Below, in pieces: positions 9,064 to 16,058 of a DNA stretch of 34,670 nt. The notes beneath the pieces are model-generated. The model had not been told where the DNA came from. It saw only the letters and a program-made list of their open reading frames with translations, and made no database searches. Source of the stretch: Bacteroidales bacterium. Lineage in GTDB: Bacteria > Bacteroidota > Bacteroidia > Bacteroidales > P3. The stretch lies in the NCBI GenBank assembly GCA_017480145.1, contig JAFVBF010000037.1, positions 1 to 34,670 of the forward strand. The letters run 5' to 3'. The stretch's first letter is position 1; each line of letters starts with the position of its first letter. Position numbers and translations under genes: made by a program.

Positions 9064-10521
9064 TTGAAACTTACCGACATACTGCAAGGCTCCAACGCAA
9101 CAATTAGCGGAAATTGCGACATTGAGATAGGAGATATCGCGTTCGACTCACGTAAGGTTCGAAAAGGCAGCCTATTCATAGCCCAACGAGGGGTGCATAC
9201 CGATGGGCATCAATATATAGGTATTGCCGTAAACAACGGAGCCTCTGCCATTGTGTGCGAGCAGATGCCAAAGGAGCAGGCCAATGGAGTATGCTACATA
9301 CAAGTGGAGGACAGCAGCAAGACCCTCGGATTAGTTGCCGACAACTTCTACCAACATCCCTCTCGCCAACTACATCTGGTGGGCATCACGGGCACCAATG
9401 GCAAGACAACAACCGTAACATTACTACACCGCATGTTCCGCATGGCAGGATTTCATGCCGGCCTACTGTCCACCATCGTCAACAAGATTGATGAAGAAGA
9501 ATATCCCACTCAACACACCACGCCCGATGCATTAGAGACCAACCAAATGCTACGCAAAATGGTGGATGCAGGATGCCAGTACTGCTTCATGGAGGTGAGC
9601 AGTCATGCCGTAGTGCAGGGTCGCATTGCAGGACTGTCCTTCGCCGGAGCCATTTTCAGCAATCTGACCCACGACCATCTGGACTATCACAAAACCATGG
9701 CGGGATACATTGCCGCAAAGAAAGGCTTCTTCGACAACCTGAGTAAAGAAGCTTTCGCCTTAGTGAATATTGACGACCGTAACGGCATGGTAATGGTGCA
9801 GAACTGTGCCGCAACGGTGAAGACCTACAGCCTGCAACGCATGGCAGACTTCCATTGCAAAATCATAGAGGACACCTTTCAGGGACTCTGTCTCCAAATC
9901 AATGGCAAAGAAGTTTGGACTCGCCTTGTAGGTCGATTCAATGCTTATAATCTGACAGCCATCTATGCCACTGCCATTCTCTGCGGACTGGCAGAGGATG
10001 AGACGCTCCGGATGCTCAGCCAATTGGAGGCCGCCGAAGGGAGATTCGAGTATGTCAGCGGACGCGGTATTACGGCCATCGTAGACTATGCCCATACGCC
10101 CGACGCACTGCAAAATGTGCTGCAAACAATCAACAGCATACGGCAGAAAAGACAGCGGCTGATTACCGTAGTAGGCTGTGGCGGCGACCGCGACAAAACC
10201 AAACGACCCGAAATGGCACAGATTGCCGCCCAACAGTCTGACAAACTGATACTGACATCTGACAACCCAAGAACAGAAGACCCCGAGCAGATACTGAACG
10301 ACATGGAGGCAGGATTGAATGCCGATGCGAAATGGAGCACATTACGCATCACCGACCGACGCCAAGCCATACGCACGGCTTGCATGATTGCCGAAGAAGG
10401 AGACATCATTCTGGTAGCAGGCAAAGGCCACGAGAAGTATCAAGAAATCAACGGTAAACGAAGTCACTTCGACGACAAAGAGGAACTCCGCACCCTTCTA
10501 AACGCAGAAGAAACAAAATAA
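9064..10521 (+). CDS. murE: UDP-N-acetylmuramoyl-L-alanyl-D-glutamate--2,6-diaminopimelate ligase MurE
   Basis: A 485-residue Mur ligase that adds meso-diaminopimelate to UDP-MurNAc-L-Ala-D-Glu in the cytoplasm. The ATP-binding P-loop is G110-T-N-G-K-T-T116. The C-terminal motif D400-N-P-R403 is the signature of mDAP-specific rather than lysine-specific MurE. The central domain has EVSSHAVVQGRI and LTHDHLDYH. The start codon is TTG at 9064: KLTDILQ just after it is the expected beginning, and no ATG is suitably placed. The gene begins 46 bases after ftsI and lies 12 bases before mraY. Confidence 0.95.
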   Translation: MKLTDILQGSNATISGNCDIEIGDIAFDSRKVRKGSLFIAQRGVHTDGHQYIGIAVNNGASAIVCEQMPKEQANGVCYIQVEDSSKTLGLVADNFYQHPSRQLHLVGITGTNGKTTTVTLLHRMFRMAGFHAGLLSTIVNKIDEEEYPTQHTTPDALETNQMLRKMVDAGCQYCFMEVSSHAVVQGRIAGLSFAGAIFSNLTHDHLDYHKTMAGYIAAKKGFFDNLSKEAFALVNIDDRNGMVMVQNCAATVKTYSLQRMADFHCKIIEDTFQGLCLQINGKEVWTRLVGRFNAYNLTAIYATAILCGLAEDETLRMLSQLEAAEGRFEYVSGRGITAIVDYAHTPDALQNVLQTINSIRQKRQRLITVVGCGGDRDKTKRPEMAQIAAQQSDKLILTSDNPRTEDPEQILNDMEAGLNADAKWSTLRITDRRQAIRTACMIAEEGDIILVAGKGHEKYQEINGKRSHFDDKEELRTLLNAEETK

Positions 10522-10533
10522 GATTTTCTAGTA

Positions 10534-11712
10534 ATGTTATATTATCTATTTGACTGGCTTAATGAGAACTGGAATCTTCCAGGGGCAGGGGTGTTCAAAT
10601 ACATCTCGTTTCGTGCAGCCTGCTGTTTCATCCTCTCGCTGCTGACGGTGCTTATCTTCGGCCATCCGTTTATCAGAATGATGCAACGCAAAGGCATCGG
10701 AGAGAACGTTCGCGCTGATGAAATGGAGAAACAAGGAACTCCGACTATGGGCGGGGTACTGATTCTCACAGCAATCATTGTTCCCACCTTACTGTTTGCC
10801 AGACCCGATAACATATATATACTCATCATGCTTGGAACCACGCTATGGCTGGGTCTGATAGGATTTATTGACGATTATATCAAAGTATTCAAAAAGGACA
10901 AGGCAGGATTACCTGGCAAATTCAAAGTAGTCGGACAGGTGACACTCGGCCTCGCTGTAGGATTACTGCTCTCCCTACACCCCGACATCGCCTCAACAAA
11001 AACAACTATCCCTTTTGTAAAAAACATTGATTTCGACTATGCATGGCTCATCAGCTGGATGGGGGACGGCGCAGCACAATGGGGCTGGGTAGTCTATGTG
11101 CTGATGTGTATCTTTGTCGTCACCGCAATCTCCAATGCAGCCAACCTTACCGACGGCATAGATGGTCTATGCACCGCCTCGGCCGCCATCATGGGAGGCA
11201 CCCTGGCCATCATTGCCTGGCTAACAGGCAACATAGTCATGGCCAATTACCTCAACATCATGTATCTGAGCGACATTGGAGAACTCACCATGTTCATATC
11301 CTCATTTGTAGGTGCGCTACTGGGATTTCTGTGGTTCAACACTCACCCCGCAGCCATATTCATGGGCGATACGGGCTCTCTCTCCATCGGTGGCATCATA
11401 GCCGTGTTCGCCCTATTAATTCGCAAAGAACTCCTGCTACCTATCCTATGCGGCATTTATGTCATCGAAAATGCTTCCGTAGTCATACAGCACACCTACT
11501 GCAAATGGTATCGTCACAGATACAAACTCCCCAAAGGACAACTGGTGCCAGTAGAGAAACGCCCATTCTACTATACCCCGCTGCACCATCACTATCAAAG
11601 CAAGCACCGACCCGATGGCAAGGGCCTTTCTGACGAGAAAATCGTGCAACGATTTTCCATCATCGGCATATTGCTGGCCATCCTTACAGTTATATCATTC
11701 AAACTGAGATAA
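10534..11712 (+). CDS. mraY: Phospho-N-acetylmuramoyl-pentapeptide-transferase MraY
   Basis: A 392-residue polytopic inner-membrane enzyme with about ten helices. It transfers phospho-MurNAc-pentapeptide to undecaprenyl phosphate to give lipid I. Visible family motifs are KQGTPTMGGVLIL near residue 70, FIDDYIKVFKKDKAGL, N-x-TDGIDGL (D207 and D210), MGDTGSLSIGG with D279, and the cytoplasmic histidine loop FYYTPLHHHYQ. Bacteroidota MraY is longer than the ~360-residue E. coli enzyme, and this length fits. Product flow runs on to MurG four genes downstream. Confidence 0.95.
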   Translation: MLYYLFDWLNENWNLPGAGVFKYISFRAACCFILSLLTVLIFGHPFIRMMQRKGIGENVRADEMEKQGTPTMGGVLILTAIIVPTLLFARPDNIYILIMLGTTLWLGLIGFIDDYIKVFKKDKAGLPGKFKVVGQVTLGLAVGLLLSLHPDIASTKTTIPFVKNIDFDYAWLISWMGDGAAQWGWVVYVLMCIFVVTAISNAANLTDGIDGLCTASAAIMGGTLAIIAWLTGNIVMANYLNIMYLSDIGELTMFISSFVGALLGFLWFNTHPAAIFMGDTGSLSIGGIIAVFALLIRKELLLPILCGIYVIENASVVIQHTYCKWYRHRYKLPKGQLVPVEKRPFYYTPLHHHYQSKHRPDGKGLSDEKIVQRFSIIGILLAILTVISFKLR

Positions 11713-11756
11713 AGAAAGTAAACACAATACAACAACACACAATACATCTTATCATC

Positions 11757-12296
11757 ATGACAATAGACGTTTTAGCAAAGCAAGGACGAAAACAGATTCC
11801 AACCACATTGGCAGAGGTAAACACCAACAGACTGAAACAAATGCGCAATGCAGGCCTGCGCTCCTGCTTCGAACACTTCAACGAGATGCGCTATCGCATG
11901 GAATTTGTGGCTCGCATCAATGGCAAGACCTTCATTAACGATGCCTCTTCTCGCAATGTAAATGCTACCTGGTTTACTCTGGAAAGCATGAATGGAAGCC
12001 TTATCTGGATTGCTAACGGCAACGACTCCACCGCCAACTATAGTCGCCTCCGTCCTGCCGCATTACGTAAGGTCCACATCCTCTACTGCGTCGGTGATAA
12101 CAACGAAAACTTGCACAAAAGCTTCGAAGGAATCATTCCGACCATCATTGATGTGCCCACATTGGGCGAAGCCGTAAACCAAGCCTTCTATAGCGACATG
12201 GAAACCGCCAGCGTAGTCTATTCTCCTGCCAGCGACAACGGCCTGACCGCCAAGGAGAATGGCGAGCGTTTTCGCATGGAAGTGAACGAACTTTAA
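11757..12296 (+). CDS. MurD remnant: isolated, degenerate C-terminal ligase domain
   Basis: A 179-residue frame in the operon slot normally held by full-length MurD (~440 residues). From about residue 30 it aligns with the MurD C-terminal domain: YRMEFVARINGKTFIND for the usual HRLE...INDS, NVNATWFTLESM for NVxSTxxAL, and SPASDNG where SPACASxD is expected. The N-terminal UDP-binding domain and the ATP-binding P-loop domain are absent; only 44 bases separate it from mraY. Positions that bind D-Glu in MurD are changed: NDSKATN reads NDASSRN, the GGxDK lysine is lost, and the CAS serine is lost. It therefore cannot be a working D-glutamate ligase. Full MurD must be encoded elsewhere or replaced. 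The frame is intact and closely coupled to ftsW (3-base gap), so it may be expressed; any present role is unknown. Confidence 0.75.
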   Translation: MTIDVLAKQGRKQIPTTLAEVNTNRLKQMRNAGLRSCFEHFNEMRYRMEFVARINGKTFINDASSRNVNATWFTLESMNGSLIWIANGNDSTANYSRLRPAALRKVHILYCVGDNNENLHKSFEGIIPTIIDVPTLGEAVNQAFYSDMETASVVYSPASDNGLTAKENGERFRMEVNEL

Positions 12297-12299
12297 CCC

Positions 12300-13511
12300 T
12301 TGAGAAACTTGAAGAAAATCGGTCAGTTGTTTAAGCTGAAGGGAGACCCCGTAATCTGGGCGATTTGCATCATTTTGAGCTGCATATCGCTCATTGCCGT
12401 GTATAGCTCCATCGGCTACACAGCCATCACCAAAATGAACACCACGCCGACATTGGCATTCGTAAAGCACGCTTTCTTCATCATTATTGCCTATGCAGCG
12501 GCCTTGGTTGTATCAAACCTTAACTACCAATTATTCTCTCGGATATCCACCATACTGTATTTATGTACAGTAGCCTTGATATTCCTTCTCATGCTCACCA
12601 AGAGCAGATGGTTTCATATCCCCTTTATTGGTTCCGTCCAACCCTCCGAGTGGGCAAAAATCTGCGCCATTATTTTCACTGCCCGAACACTCACATTGCA
12701 TAAAGATGACTATGGCAGCGGAAAATTATTCTGGATAAGCCTCCTTCCCATGTCGCTTATTGCGGCACTTATCATGCCAGAGAACTTATCCACCGCCCTG
12801 CTGGTTTTTGCCGTAGGCCTTATCATGATGTTTTTAGGAGGCGTGAGGACAAAACACATACTTATTACAATTGGTATTCTAATCGTCATTGGCTCCTTAT
12901 CACTGACGCTTTCCTATAAAATATTCCATAGCGAGTTAGCCGTATATGCACGCGAAAGCCCTCTGAAACGTGCGGAAACATGGAGCAACCGCATAGACCA
13001 CTGGCTCAATCCCGACGAGGCATCCATCACACAAGAGAACATGGCCAAAATGGCCATTGCCGATGGCGGCCTGCTACGCATGAATATAGGGGGAACCGTT
13101 CATGCCCGACTCATGACGCAAGCCAACAACGACTTCATCTATGCTATCATTGTCGAGGAAACGGGCAGCATCGTCGGCATCATTATCTTCTTACTCTACA
13201 CCATATTATTCTACCGATGTATCATGCTGTCCTACTGGAGCGGGAGACGATATGGCGGACTTTTAATTATCGGGCTGGGAACCTCAATATACCTCCAAGC
13301 CATCGTTCATATGTGCGTCTGTGTAGGTATCATACCTGTCACGGGACAAACACTCCCCCTAATCAGTACGGGAGGTACAGCATACCTACTAACAGGTTTC
13401 AGCATTGGGCTGATACAATCAGTGGTACGCAGTACCAGCAAGAAGAAAAAAAGTAATATGCCACAATCCGCAGCGGACAAAGACATCCAAACCCACTCCT
13501 TAACATCATAA
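12300..13511 (+). CDS. ftsW: Septal peptidoglycan glycosyltransferase FtsW (SEDS family)
   Basis: A 403-residue SEDS protein with about ten membrane helices that polymerises lipid II at the septum in partnership with the class B PBP. Motifs include GSVQPSEWAKI (PSE motif), ENLSTALLVF and the periplasmic loop NNDFIYAIIVEETG. D278 in that loop matches the essential aspartate of SEDS enzymes. PVTGQTLPLISTGGTAYL near the C-terminus is typical. The start is a TTG at 12300, 3 bases after the preceding stop, which suggests coupling. No better start leaves the basic N-terminus and first helix intact. Confidence 0.93.
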   Translation: MRNLKKIGQLFKLKGDPVIWAICIILSCISLIAVYSSIGYTAITKMNTTPTLAFVKHAFFIIIAYAAALVVSNLNYQLFSRISTILYLCTVALIFLLMLTKSRWFHIPFIGSVQPSEWAKICAIIFTARTLTLHKDDYGSGKLFWISLLPMSLIAALIMPENLSTALLVFAVGLIMMFLGGVRTKHILITIGILIVIGSLSLTLSYKIFHSELAVYARESPLKRAETWSNRIDHWLNPDEASITQENMAKMAIADGGLLRMNIGGTVHARLMTQANNDFIYAIIVEETGSIVGIIIFLLYTILFYRCIMLSYWSGRRYGGLLIIGLGTSIYLQAIVHMCVCVGIIPVTGQTLPLISTGGTAYLLTGFSIGLIQSVVRSTSKKKKSNMPQSAADKDIQTHSLTS

Positions 13512-13513
13512 AT

Positions 13514-14626
13514 ATGAAAGCCATTATCAGCGGAGGCGGCAGCGGCGGACACATATTCCCCGCCATTGCCATAGCAAATGCAATACGACAGAGACACCCC
13601 GATGCCGACATCTTATTTATCGGTGCAGAAGGCAAGATGGAAATGGAGAAGGTGCCCGCGGCAGGCTACCCCATAAAAGGACTGCCCATAGACGGACTGC
13701 ATCGACAACTGAATTGGACAAACATCAAAAGAAACATAAAGTTACCGTACAAGATACTGAAGAGTAACCGAATGGTGAAATCCATCATCACAGAGTTCCA
13801 GCCAGACATCGTGATTGGCGTTGGAGGATACGCCTCTGAACCTACACTGAAGACAGCGGGCAGGATGGGCTTCCCCACCCTGATACAAGAACAGAACTCC
13901 TATGCAGGACTGACCAATAAGATGCTCTCCAAACAGGCGCAAAAGATATGCGTCGCCTACGAAGGCATGGAACGCTTCTTTCCTGCCGAAAAGATAGTGA
14001 TGACAGGCAATCCCGTACGGCAAGACATCGAAAACATGACAGCAACACGAGAAGAAGGCTGTACCTACTTCCATCTCAACCCCGAACGGCAAACAGTACT
14101 TTCGGTAGGTGGGAGTCTGGGGGCGAGGAGCATCAACACCATGTTGCTGAACCATATTGAAGAATTTGAAAAAAACAACCTGCAACTCGTGTGGCAAACC
14201 GGACGGTGGATGTACGAGCAAGTGTCAGAAGCCGTACGCAAAGCAGGTGCCGAAGAATGGGTGAAAGTTCATCAATTCATCAACCGCATGGATCTGGCTT
14301 ATGCAGCCGCAGACATAGTCATCTCGCGTGCAGGAGCCATTGCCATCTCCGAATTATGCCTTATCGGCAAGCCCATCATACTGATTCCATCGCCCAATGT
14401 GGCCGAAGACCACCAAACAAAAAATGCACAAGCCCTTGTTAATAAAGGAGCTGCAATTTTGGTCAAAGATTCGGAATGCAATGAGCAAGGAATACATAAG
14501 TTATTAGAACTGAGCAACTCAAAGGAATTGCAGGCAAAAATGAGTACCTCATGCCTTGCCATGGGCAAGAGACAAGCGGCGCAAAAAATCGCCGATGAGA
14601 TTGATAGAATCGTCCAAAAATCGTAA
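13514..14626 (+). CDS. murG: Undecaprenyldiphospho-muramoylpentapeptide beta-N-acetylglucosaminyltransferase MurG
   Basis: A 370-residue GT28 enzyme that converts lipid I to lipid II at the inner face of the membrane. The N-terminal glycine loop is G7-G-G-S-G-G-H13. GVGGYASEPTL, LIQEQNSYAGLTNK, the second glycine motif VGGSLGARSIN and SRAGAIAISELCLIGKPIILIP (UDP-GlcNAc site) follow in order. It lies 2 bases after ftsW. The stop codon at 14624 coincides with a promoter-like TAATTTTG. Confidence 0.95.
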   Translation: MKAIISGGGSGGHIFPAIAIANAIRQRHPDADILFIGAEGKMEMEKVPAAGYPIKGLPIDGLHRQLNWTNIKRNIKLPYKILKSNRMVKSIITEFQPDIVIGVGGYASEPTLKTAGRMGFPTLIQEQNSYAGLTNKMLSKQAQKICVAYEGMERFFPAEKIVMTGNPVRQDIENMTATREEGCTYFHLNPERQTVLSVGGSLGARSINTMLLNHIEEFEKNNLQLVWQTGRWMYEQVSEAVRKAGAEEWVKVHQFINRMDLAYAAADIVISRAGAIAISELCLIGKPIILIPSPNVAEDHQTKNAQALVNKGAAILVKDSECNEQGIHKLLELSNSKELQAKMSTSCLAMGKRQAAQKIADEIDRIVQKS

Positions 14627-14666: not shown

Positions 14667-16058
14667 ATGAAATACTATTTCCTCGGCATAGGAGGCATAG
14701 GCATGAGTGCCTTAGCTCGCTTCTTTAAACAGCGAGGCGATAGCGTGTGCGGATACGACCACACAGCAAGTCCGCTAACACGGCAGCTGGAGGCGGAAGG
14801 CATTGAAGTCCATTATGATGACAATCCCGAAAAGATTCCCTCAGATATTGACCTATGCATCTACACCCCTGCCGTACCCAAAGAGACTTCTGAATACCAA
14901 TACATCGCATCAAAGAGTATCCCCATCTGCAAGCGTTCTCAAGTTCTTGGAGAACTGACCCGGGGCAAGAAATGTATTGCCGTAGCCGGCAGCCATGGCA
15001 AAACCACGACATCTGGACTGATTGCCCACCTGCTACGCAGTGCCAATATTCCGACAAGCGCATTTCTGGGCGGTATCAGCAAAAATATCGGCAGCAACAT
15101 GTGCTACAACCCACATAGCGAATATGTGGTCGTCGAAGCCGACGAATACGACCGCTCCTTCCTCCAACTCTATCCCCACTACTCCGTCATCACTTCCACC
15201 GACCCCGACCATTTGGACATCTACGGCTCGCACGCCAACCTACTTCAAGCATTTCTCCAGTATGCGAAACAAACTGATGCCACTGGACATCTATTCATCA
15301 ACAAAAATTCCTCACTGCTGAAACACTGCATGGAGGGAAAAACGAGCCTTACAAACTGTTTAACCTGCCAGACAAGCCAATATGGCGGCATCCACAGTCA
15401 GGCAGAGTACCGAGCAGAACGACTACACATTGACAACGGGACTATCAGCTTCGACTATATTGCTCCTAACGGAAACAGCCTGCAAAATCTTAAACTCTAC
15501 CGCTCAGCACCCTACAATGTGGAAAATGCCGTGGCTGCCATAGCCGTTGCACAACAGTGCGGAGCCTCAGAAAAACAAATCAAAGAAGGTCTCGCCACTT
15601 TTACCGGCATTCAACGTCGCTTTGACTATAGGGTATCGAATGCCAATATCATCTACATTGATGATTACGCCCATCACCCTGCCGAGATAGCCGCCAGCAT
15701 ACAGTCTGCTCGAACTCTTTTCCCAAACAAAAGAATCGTAGGAATATTCCAGCCCCACCTGTACAGCCGCACGGCAGATTTCGCCGACGACTTCGCCAAA
15801 GTGCTGTCAACGCTGGATGGCATCGTCATGATGGACATCTACCCAGCGCGAGAGCACCCCCTGCCCGGGGTCACCTCCCAGATGGTGCTTGACAAAATAG
15901 CCAATATAAACAAACGGCTATGCACCAAAGAGGAAATACCATCAATTATTTCCGAATTGCAAGCCGACGTCCTAATGACACTCGGCGCAGGAGACATAGA
16001 CCGCATAGTACCCGAGATAGAGAAACATCTCACACAAAATACTACTACACACAAATAA
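14667..16058 (+). CDS. murC: UDP-N-acetylmuramate--L-alanine ligase MurC
   Basis: A 463-residue Mur ligase that joins L-alanine to UDP-MurNAc, the first peptide step. The N-terminal nucleotide-binding loop is FLGIGGIGMSALA (G7-G12) and the ATP P-loop is G108-S-H-G-K-T-T114. EADEYDRSF, STDPDHLDIYG, YIDDYAHHPAEI and FQPHLYSRT are characteristic MurC blocks. Full length with all three domains present, which contrasts with the murD position upstream. Confidence 0.95.
   Translation: MKYYFLGIGGIGMSALARFFKQRGDSVCGYDHTASPLTRQLEAEGIEVHYDDNPEKIPSDIDLCIYTPAVPKETSEYQYIASKSIPICKRSQVLGELTRGKKCIAVAGSHGKTTTSGLIAHLLRSANIPTSAFLGGISKNIGSNMCYNPHSEYVVVEADEYDRSFLQLYPHYSVITSTDPDHLDIYGSHANLLQAFLQYAKQTDATGHLFINKNSSLLKHCMEGKTSLTNCLTCQTSQYGGIHSQAEYRAERLHIDNGTISFDYIAPNGNSLQNLKLYRSAPYNVENAVAAIAVAQQCGASEKQIKEGLATFTGIQRRFDYRVSNANIIYIDDYAHHPAEIAASIQSARTLFPNKRIVGIFQPHLYSRTADFADDFAKVLSTLDGIVMMDIYPAREHPLPGVTSQMVLDKIANINKRLCTKEEIPSIISELQADVLMTLGAGDIDRIVPEIEKHLTQNTTTHK

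Follow-up and report, generated by a model that had tools for sequence, protein, structure and literature searches.

In this work we describe a short gene that occupies the murD position of a Bacteroidales genome and encodes a stand-alone copy of MurD domain 3, here called the stump or MurD-C. MurD is a textbook essential enzyme and drug target. On balance we think it slightly more likely than not that MurD-C is a functional, non-catalytic protein, kept as a second product of murD while the enzyme part of the gene was repeatedly lost. Two points had not been foreseen in the initial annotation of this DNA, which was made from sequence alone: the ligase of this genome looks MurD2-like and is accompanied by a MurL-like protein with no MurI, and the start of the stump corresponds to an internal methionine of full-length MurD.

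A stand-alone MurD domain 3 between mraY and ftsW

The window, by which we mean the whole stretch of 34,670 nucleotides analysed, is one entire contig (C29) of an assembly that comprises 86 contigs and is 81% complete. The features discussed here are the following.

9064..10521, + strand: murE, full length (485 aa); frame list
10534..11712, + strand: mraY, adjoining the stump upstream; frame list and synteny
11713..11756, + strand: gap of 44 bases from the mraY stop to the stump ATG; sequence
11757..12296, + strand: the stump (MurD-C), a stand-alone MurD domain-3 protein of 179 aa, ATG start and TAA stop; frame translation, profile and predicted fold
11757..11822, + strand: N-terminal tail of the stump, residues 1-22; low model confidence alone, high conservation in the genus
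11937..11957, + strand: NDASSRN where MurD has NDSKATN; motif comparison
12222..12242, + strand: SPASDNG where MurD has SPACASF, the S415-type serine being gone; motif comparison
12300..13511, + strand: ftsW, adjoining the stump downstream; TTG start as listed, 3 bases past the stump stop
13514..14626, + strand: murG, full length; frame list
14667..16058, + strand: murC, full length (463 aa); frame list and MurC-like match

The initial annotation had read the murD slot as a 179-residue frame with only the C-terminal fold of MurD, coupled to ftsW and set among full-length Mur genes, and this description stands: MurE, MurC, MraY, FtsW and MurG are complete, ftsW as listed opens directly past the stump stop, and the stump matched only positions 258-419 of the 441 of the MurD model TIGR01087. 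Its score of 82.5 bits lies below the cut-off of 211.95 for this equivalog of the MurD ligase, and model positions 1-257, which cover the UDP-MurNAc-binding and ATP-binding domains of the three-domain enzyme, are absent. Since only 44 bases separate the mraY stop from the stump ATG, there is no room for a hidden N-terminal part; in full-length relatives the place of this gap is taken by approximately 800 bases of murD encoding domains 1 and 2. The Pfam model Mur_ligase_C scored 21.8 on the stump, under its cut-off of 28.4. Descent from MurD domain 3 is nevertheless recognisable in profile, operon place and fold: an HMM built from the stumps of the genus matches full-length MurDs in their C-terminal part, modelling of the genus alignment with AlphaFold2 gave a confident domain (mean pLDDT 86.6, with residues 1-20 at about 48), and a Foldseek search with this model returned MurD domain 3, the top match being P. 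aeruginosa MurD (7u35; E 1.3e-10 over 141 columns).

In fold, ancestry and dcw place between mraY and ftsW the stump is thus like a MurD ligase; it is unlike one in having neither domain 1 nor domain 2 and in its ligand residues. The domain-3 ligand residues, which we take to be K319, K348 and S415 and whose positions were located by motif, are all three missing from the window stump, where the motif changes described initially (NDSKATN to NDASSRN, and loss of the GGxxK lysine and of the SPACAS serine) are all present. Across the genus, alanine occupies the S318 position in 36/36 stumps and arginine the T321 position in 33/36, and the K348- and S415-type positions are no longer conserved; where the catalytic site had been, the aligned residues show a new conserved set and not random letters. 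Full-length MurDs of the MurI and MurL-like genomes introduced below keep K319, K348 and S415 in 41/41 rows. Relatives carrying the same short form with its catalytic residues in place, a case for which the initial annotation had allowed, do not occur in the genus, where the K319-type lysine is found in 0/36 stumps; in other families they do in part: of the 22 stumps from beyond the genus, G051 among them, 16 keep this lysine and 14 the S415-type serine. Ranging from an intact active site (e.g. G041, G094, G160 and G109) to a lost one, these 22 stumps read, by their residues, as a series that leads from truncation to remodelling. The mean majority fraction in the genus is 0.75 over residues 1-22, compared with 0.64 over residues 23-44 and 0.62 over residues 45-179, and as the first 22 residues are conserved yet not confidently folded alone, we read this tail as a putative binding peptide.

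The stump was found in 36 of the 37 genomes of the genus (our own and 36 others). In all 36 the order is murE-mraY-stump-ftsW, the first ATG past mraY opens a frame of 176-181 aa, and the start falls within one codon; stop codons seen in some of the genus matches sit upstream of the stump ATG, from which the frames are open onward. The one genome without a stump, G026, also has no mraY match and only a weak ftsW-like match. A related-locus search with the window protein alone gave no match. Scanning named genomes with a stump-derived probe gave 60 loci, each with mraY before and ftsW after (60/60) and a frame of 176-186 aa; at least 17 of these are genus contigs already counted, which leaves about 43 new ones, and many of the 60 come from ruminant or horse gut samples. 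One record, titled Christensenella sp. UBA1214 (L292), carries a Bacteroidales-type mraY-stump-ftsW locus and is probably mislabelled or a mixed assembly. Stand-alone domain-3 frames also occur in 17 other families of the order. Loss of the N-terminal domains through assembly error, which had been raised at the outset, is ruled out, since these independent assemblies share the short gene and its position.

Two of the checks proposed for the fragment, comparison of the locus in close relatives and dN/dS, speak for a maintained gene. The four closest genus pairs have ratios of 0.04-0.06 and the 14 closest ratios of 0.04-0.13, and pS exceeds pN in 630/630 pairs. Most pairs have a high or saturated dS, and among the 101 pairs with dS below 1.5 the ratio reaches up to 0.64. 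Within the genus, stumps are 42-59% identical to the window protein, a range close to that of the FtsW proteins of the same loci (38-49%). By these comparisons the genus stump is under purifying selection. Recent decay, which the initial annotation had preferred as the simpler reading, is ruled out for the genus by the dN/dS values and the genus-wide conservation of length, start, place and sequence, and the option that it had ranked second, retention for another role, is the one favoured by the data. The loss of the catalytic residues in the genus and the coverage of the enzyme step elsewhere in the genome would both suit a murD fragment that has been decaying since a takeover by MurD2/MurL and is open by chance, but the intact frame at one place in nearly every genus genome, the absence of any pair with pN at or above pS, and the conversion of the catalytic site into a new conserved set leave such a recent pseudogene next to no probability.

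Probable replacement of the ligase step and distribution of the stump

MurD activity had been expected to reside in a complete enzyme elsewhere, and the genome search found a single MurD-family protein above the TIGR01087 cut-off, a 462-aa enzyme on contig C15 (253.5 bits). An overlapping frame encodes a second 462-aa protein, which matches NF041275 (MurL) with 257 bits (E 2.5e-76). The cut-off of this model, MurL_Xanthmoales, is 700 bits, which neither this protein nor a protein of any of the 149 order genomes surveyed (0/149) reaches, and because the model name limits it to Xanthomonadales we call the gene MurL-like. As described in PMC8788868, MurD2 of Xanthomonas adds L-Glu, which MurL then epimerises, and specificity is set by two exchanges, which in the numbering of the E. 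coli enzyme are D182 to E and K348 to R. Both residues, E at the D182 position and R at the K348 position, were found in 25/25 MurD2 rows, our own genome included, which suggests that the C15 enzyme is likely of the MurD2 type and a predicted L-Glu ligase. Strong correlations point to a ligase step carried out by this MurD2-type enzyme with L-Glu and completed by the MurL-like epimerase, which would yield D-Glu.

These correlations hold within the genus and beyond it. MurI was found in 0/37 genus genomes and in 0/53 of the MurL-like genomes of the order, and MurL-like matches occur in 33/37 genus genomes, the exceptions being G012, G017, G018 and G035. In G017 MurD2 begins at a contig edge, and G012, G018 and G035 have no MurL-like gene, no MurD2 and no MurI, possibly through assembly gaps. 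MurL-like and MurD2 genes are adjacent in our own genome and lie on different contigs in G037. A D-amino-acid transaminase as a different source of D-Glu in MurL-like genomes was rejected: it scored above its cut-off of 277.45 in one of the 149 genomes, a MurI genome, and the best MurL-like genome reached 140.2 bits. Among eight loci examined, three that had been chosen for their long frames (G034 L045, G005 L060 and G020 L051) have MurL-like and MurD2 fused in one frame of 890-922 aa, and G033, G115 and G143 have frames of similar length (885-949 aa) that suggest further fusions.

The order-wide survey covered 149 genomes of 133 genera, drawn evenly from the order, with thresholds of E <= 1e-10 for MurL-like and E <= 1e-25 for MurI, and the co-occurrence tally was compiled by hand from per-gene lists. 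MurL-like genes were found in 53 genomes, MurI in 89, both in none and neither in seven. The domain-3 gene of the 53 MurL-like genomes is a stump in 22, full length in 26, missing in three and at a contig edge in two; the 89 MurI genomes have no stump, 88 full-length genes and one without; and the seven genomes with neither have one stump (G051), five full-length genes and one at an edge. Stumps thus occur in 22/48 scorable MurL-like genomes versus 0/88 MurI genomes (Fisher p 2e-12, with kinship ignored). The stump counts leave out G088, G131 and G143, which lie at contig edges. The place past mraY and before ftsW was confirmed for 22/22 stumps, and the 88 full-length genes of MurI genomes were inspected in place in 15 cases and otherwise scored by frame length. 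One of them, the murD of the MurI genome G042, was scored as full and is split over two contig ends; the two pieces (L089 and L218) overlap in the domain-3 part, and the genome looks stump-like only because of this assembly split. The 26 full-length MurDs of MurL-like genomes retain K319, K348 and S415 in every case (26/26), together with the domain-2 P-loop lysine and the K198, H183, N138 and E157 types (26/26).

Four genomes scored without domain 3 (G026, G056, G165 and G053) have no mraY match and only weak ftsW-like matches; their assemblies thus probably do not include the dcw locus. The MurL-like genome G113 was scored as having none, its sole domain-3 match being weak (E 9.6e-10, place not listed), and represents a real absence: its dcw cluster is split and no domain 3 is found at either junction, from which it follows that the stump function can be lost. 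At its two loci (L309 and L311), ftsW has no mraY or murD piece before it, and mraY is followed by another gene, which we take to be ApbE-like. G051, which is 98% complete and has its stump at L090 5552-6058, has neither MurI nor a MurL-like gene, nor does any MurD-family match exceed the cut-off.

This distribution bears on the question of whom MurD-C serves. Stumps are confined to genomes with MurL-like genes, except in G051, and stumps outside the genus often keep the K319-type lysine (16/22) and S415-type serine (14/22), as could be expected if MurD-C regulated MurD2/MurL or joined them as a subunit, perhaps one for glutamate sensing or for assembly, instead of being a general Mur/FtsW adaptor. 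Such a partnership is a serious rival, but we regard it as rather improbable, given that MurD2 has a complete domain 3 of its own, that 26 of the 48 scorable MurL-like genomes have a full-length MurD instead of a stump, that the genus stumps are without the Glu-binding residues, and that the internal-start signal described below is present in MurI genomes too.

Probable repeated truncation and a proposed internal start codon in murD

Phylogenies of the flanking genes and of domain 3 itself give different views of how often murD was truncated. The flanking-gene tree, built from five proteins at 72 loci by a quick method with SH-aLRT support only, has 11 changes of stump state, eight of them forced by starred branches, and places the stump genome G070 and the full-length genome G184, members of the same genus, as sisters. 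Holding 18 stumps as one clade against 41 rows was rejected by an AU test on the flanking genes (lnL 374 lower, p 3e-7), in which 13 of the 72 rows had been dropped (two at contig edges, three poorly filled, three from the genus and five with long branches or otherwise odd). Domain 3 alone does not reject a single stump clade (AU p 0.26 and 0.21). In the larger domain-3 tree a starred branch (97/95) joins the genus stumps with G039, G158, G070, G051, G137 and G115, in contradiction to the flanking genes and with long branches in play, and the stumps G041 and G160 pair with the full-length G076 and G084 (91/73, unstarred). The thinned tree, which leaves out of 90 rows five long stumps, three edge rows, ten from the genus and five MurD2, pairs the stump G176 with the full-length G076 and G084 (92/77) and G097 with G146 (86/73), again unstarred, so that the stump and full-length pairings differ between the two free trees.

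We favour repeated truncation, and regard the spread of one short allele as a rival to be taken seriously: one or few truncations may have been followed by recombination between mraY and ftsW, in which case the shared start would reflect common descent and not a pre-existing internal start. We consider this unlikely, although it accounts for the single clade tolerated by domain 3, for the starred union of stumps from several families, including G070 with flanking genes sister to those of a full-length genome, and for the similar start position and length across families. It is opposed by the flanking-gene tree, with its rejected single clade and eight forced changes, by the pairing of some stumps with full-length MurDs in the free domain-3 trees (unstarred, and different ones in each), and by the codon signal in MurI genomes, which have no stump.

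Derivation of the stump from MurD2 was considered and is not favoured, since in the larger domain-3 tree the MurD2 rows make up a clade (100/100) separate from the stumps; in the thinned tree the MurD2 pair grouped with one stump, G130 (85/79, unstarred). The thinned tree also places domain 3 of 15 MurI-genome MurDs and of one from a genome with neither gene in one clade (99/97), apart from the MurDs of MurL-like genomes, and in the larger tree the MurI-genome MurDs are not one clade.

Most stumps begin at the same position. In an alignment of 58 stumps with 43 full-length MurDs, 47/58 stumps start at one column, and the other 11 start elsewhere, including four at the next column. The stump-start column is Met in 41/43 full-length MurDs and Leu in E. 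coli; the two of these 43 without it are G134 (ATA) and G184 (ATT), the latter being the full-length sister of the stump genome G070. Two other Met columns are nearly as conserved (40/43 and 39/43). Translation in the phylum is tuned by mRNA structure and by A at -3, which promotes initiation (PMC6847099). At the internal Met, A is found at -3 in 71% of cases, and at -6 in only 10% versus 52% at stump starts, and the mean folding energy is -1.9 versus -5.3 kcal/mol at 251 other Mets. Compared with synonymous shuffles, the internal Met has 1.24 kcal/mol less structure around it (p 4e-7), unlike the other Mets when pooled.

A scan of 429 murD codon columns placed the 25 best only near the true start (columns 80-85) and around the internal Met (columns 350-375, that is, from just before it to about 14 codons past). 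Column 367, six past the internal Met, ranks first of the 429 (+2.10 kcal/mol, t 6.9), with an excess of 2.19 in MurL-like and 2.03 in MurI genomes. The internal Met column itself ranks 18th (+1.18, t 5.7), or 48th in MurI genomes alone, and its A-excess 34th, the avoidance of structure peaking 3-9 codons downstream. In control scans of MraY (41 rows), MurC (40), MurG (37) and MurE (31), no column reached 1.8 with t of at least 5; MraY, MurG and MurE peak at the gene start and MurC has no start peak, and internal columns were at most 1.16 among the top 12 listed for each gene. Beyond the order, where 30 of 60 matching genomes were used, 14 genomes of other orders of the class reach up to 1.46 near the site and 1.45 and 1.34 at two other places, and 16 genomes outside the class have the Met in 12/16 with no signal at it and other columns of up to 2.02, a sign of how noisy small samples are. 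Taken with the Met conservation and the controls, the codon bias points to a conserved in-frame start codon with start-like context, the A at -6 and the rank of the Met column being among the weaker points. This suggests that full-length murD in the order carries a predicted internal start, and that the stump may be what remains when only the product of that start is kept.

Other causes of a low-structure stretch were weighed. The A-rich region could be an internal promoter or a compositionally biased linker instead of a start, with deletions ending there because the site is prone to recombination or marks a domain boundary; ahead of the Met there is indeed a stretch encoding a polar loop of variable sequence, in which N, K, D and T abound and A-rich codons predominate, and the peak lies downstream of the Met. 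Against this, the excess is measured relative to synonymous shuffles with the same residues and reaches conserved codons past the Met, as it does at the true starts of murD and mraY, and the Bacteroidetes promoter motif TAnnTTTG is not enriched (1/43 versus 21/1397 control windows), which makes a promoter or linker rather improbable. A device for translational coupling or re-initiation of ftsW, in which the short frame would be a leader whose protein sequence hardly matters, appears very unlikely. It would suit an mRNA signal at the nucleotide level and an ftsW that opens a few bases past the stump stop in the window, but the amino acids are conserved over all 179 residues, the gap to ftsW varies among relatives, a far shorter leader would suffice, and the signal lies some 540 bases upstream of ftsW.

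A proposed second role of murD and its relation to known systems

The reading that we favour, MurD-C as a retained second product, can be set out in five steps. As the computed comparisons show, MurD-C is a MurD domain 3 maintained by purifying selection in the genus and standing alone in 17 other families. As strong correlations suggest, MurD2-type and MurL-like enzymes may have taken over and MurI been lost, which would have made domains 1 and 2 of the old murD dispensable. The flanking-gene tree points to many independent deletions of the 5' part of murD, most of which spared the same piece, and the codon bias to an intact ancestral murD that already made the domain-3 piece from an internal start codon, so that each deletion would have removed the enzyme and left the second product. 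Least surely, MurD-C may act as an adaptor in a membrane-side Mur assembly of MraY, MurG, FtsW and Mur ligases, which it would bind with the conserved tail at its N-terminus and with the face, now remodelled, that once held the active site. This adaptor role is suggested by where the gene lies in the operon, by the conservation of the tail, by the missing ligase residues and by the published binding of Mur ligases to MurG and MreB. More generally, and tentatively, since we judge it somewhat short of an even chance, murD of the Bacteroidales, perhaps class-wide, may be a two-product gene in which an internal start yields a MurD-C with a non-catalytic Mur/FtsW job, with repeated collapse to that product once MurD2/MurL frees the gene from its ligase duty. 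The presence of the internal-start signal in MurI genomes would make this role older than the MurD2/MurL route.

The pairing of MurD2-type and MurL-like genes is like MurD2/MurL of Xanthomonas oryzae as presented in parts of PMC8788868 and PMC5808125 (an adjacent pair, no MurI and both specificity residues), and unlike it in being widespread in one order of Bacteroidia and in the retention of the old murD remnant. In those same parts, the distribution of MurD2/MurL is given as gamma- and alphaproteobacteria and actinobacteria, with low-similarity orthologues elsewhere, and neither text mentions Bacteroidetes. An intact murD with an internal start would be like the bacterial N-terminal proteoforms of PMC11005335, in the portion consulted, where one gene gives a long and a short protein; here, unlike there, the short form would outlive the long one after loss of the 5' part of the gene. 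Non-catalytic use of Mur ligase surfaces is likewise known: MurD, MurE and MurF bind MurG and MreB in Thermotoga maritima, as cited in the excerpted text of PMC6420597 on MurG oligomers, although the ligases are bound there as whole proteins and the adaptor considered here would be an isolated domain 3. The MurD2/MurL route is known in other phyla. Among the matches listed in the open literature we found no paper that deals with MurL of Bacteroidetes or with a MurD that is truncated or internal, and none that describes how widely the route occurs in the order, the reduction of murD to a single domain or the second product proposed here.

If the C-terminal domain of MurD is also a separate structural protein, widespread gut bacteria would be natural separation-of-function mutants, with the enzyme deleted and the second function kept, and the long-suspected scaffold role of Mur ligases would become directly testable. 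MurD2/MurL would likewise be a major alternative in the order, mutually exclusive with glutamate racemase in the sampled genomes, and inhibitors of MurI or MurD might therefore miss such species. The MurD2-type gene (L009 1584-2972) scores 253.5 bits, above the TIGR01087 cut-off of 211.95 for the D-Glu-adding MurD, and automatic annotation would therefore probably label this likely L-Glu ligase as a D-Glu ligase.
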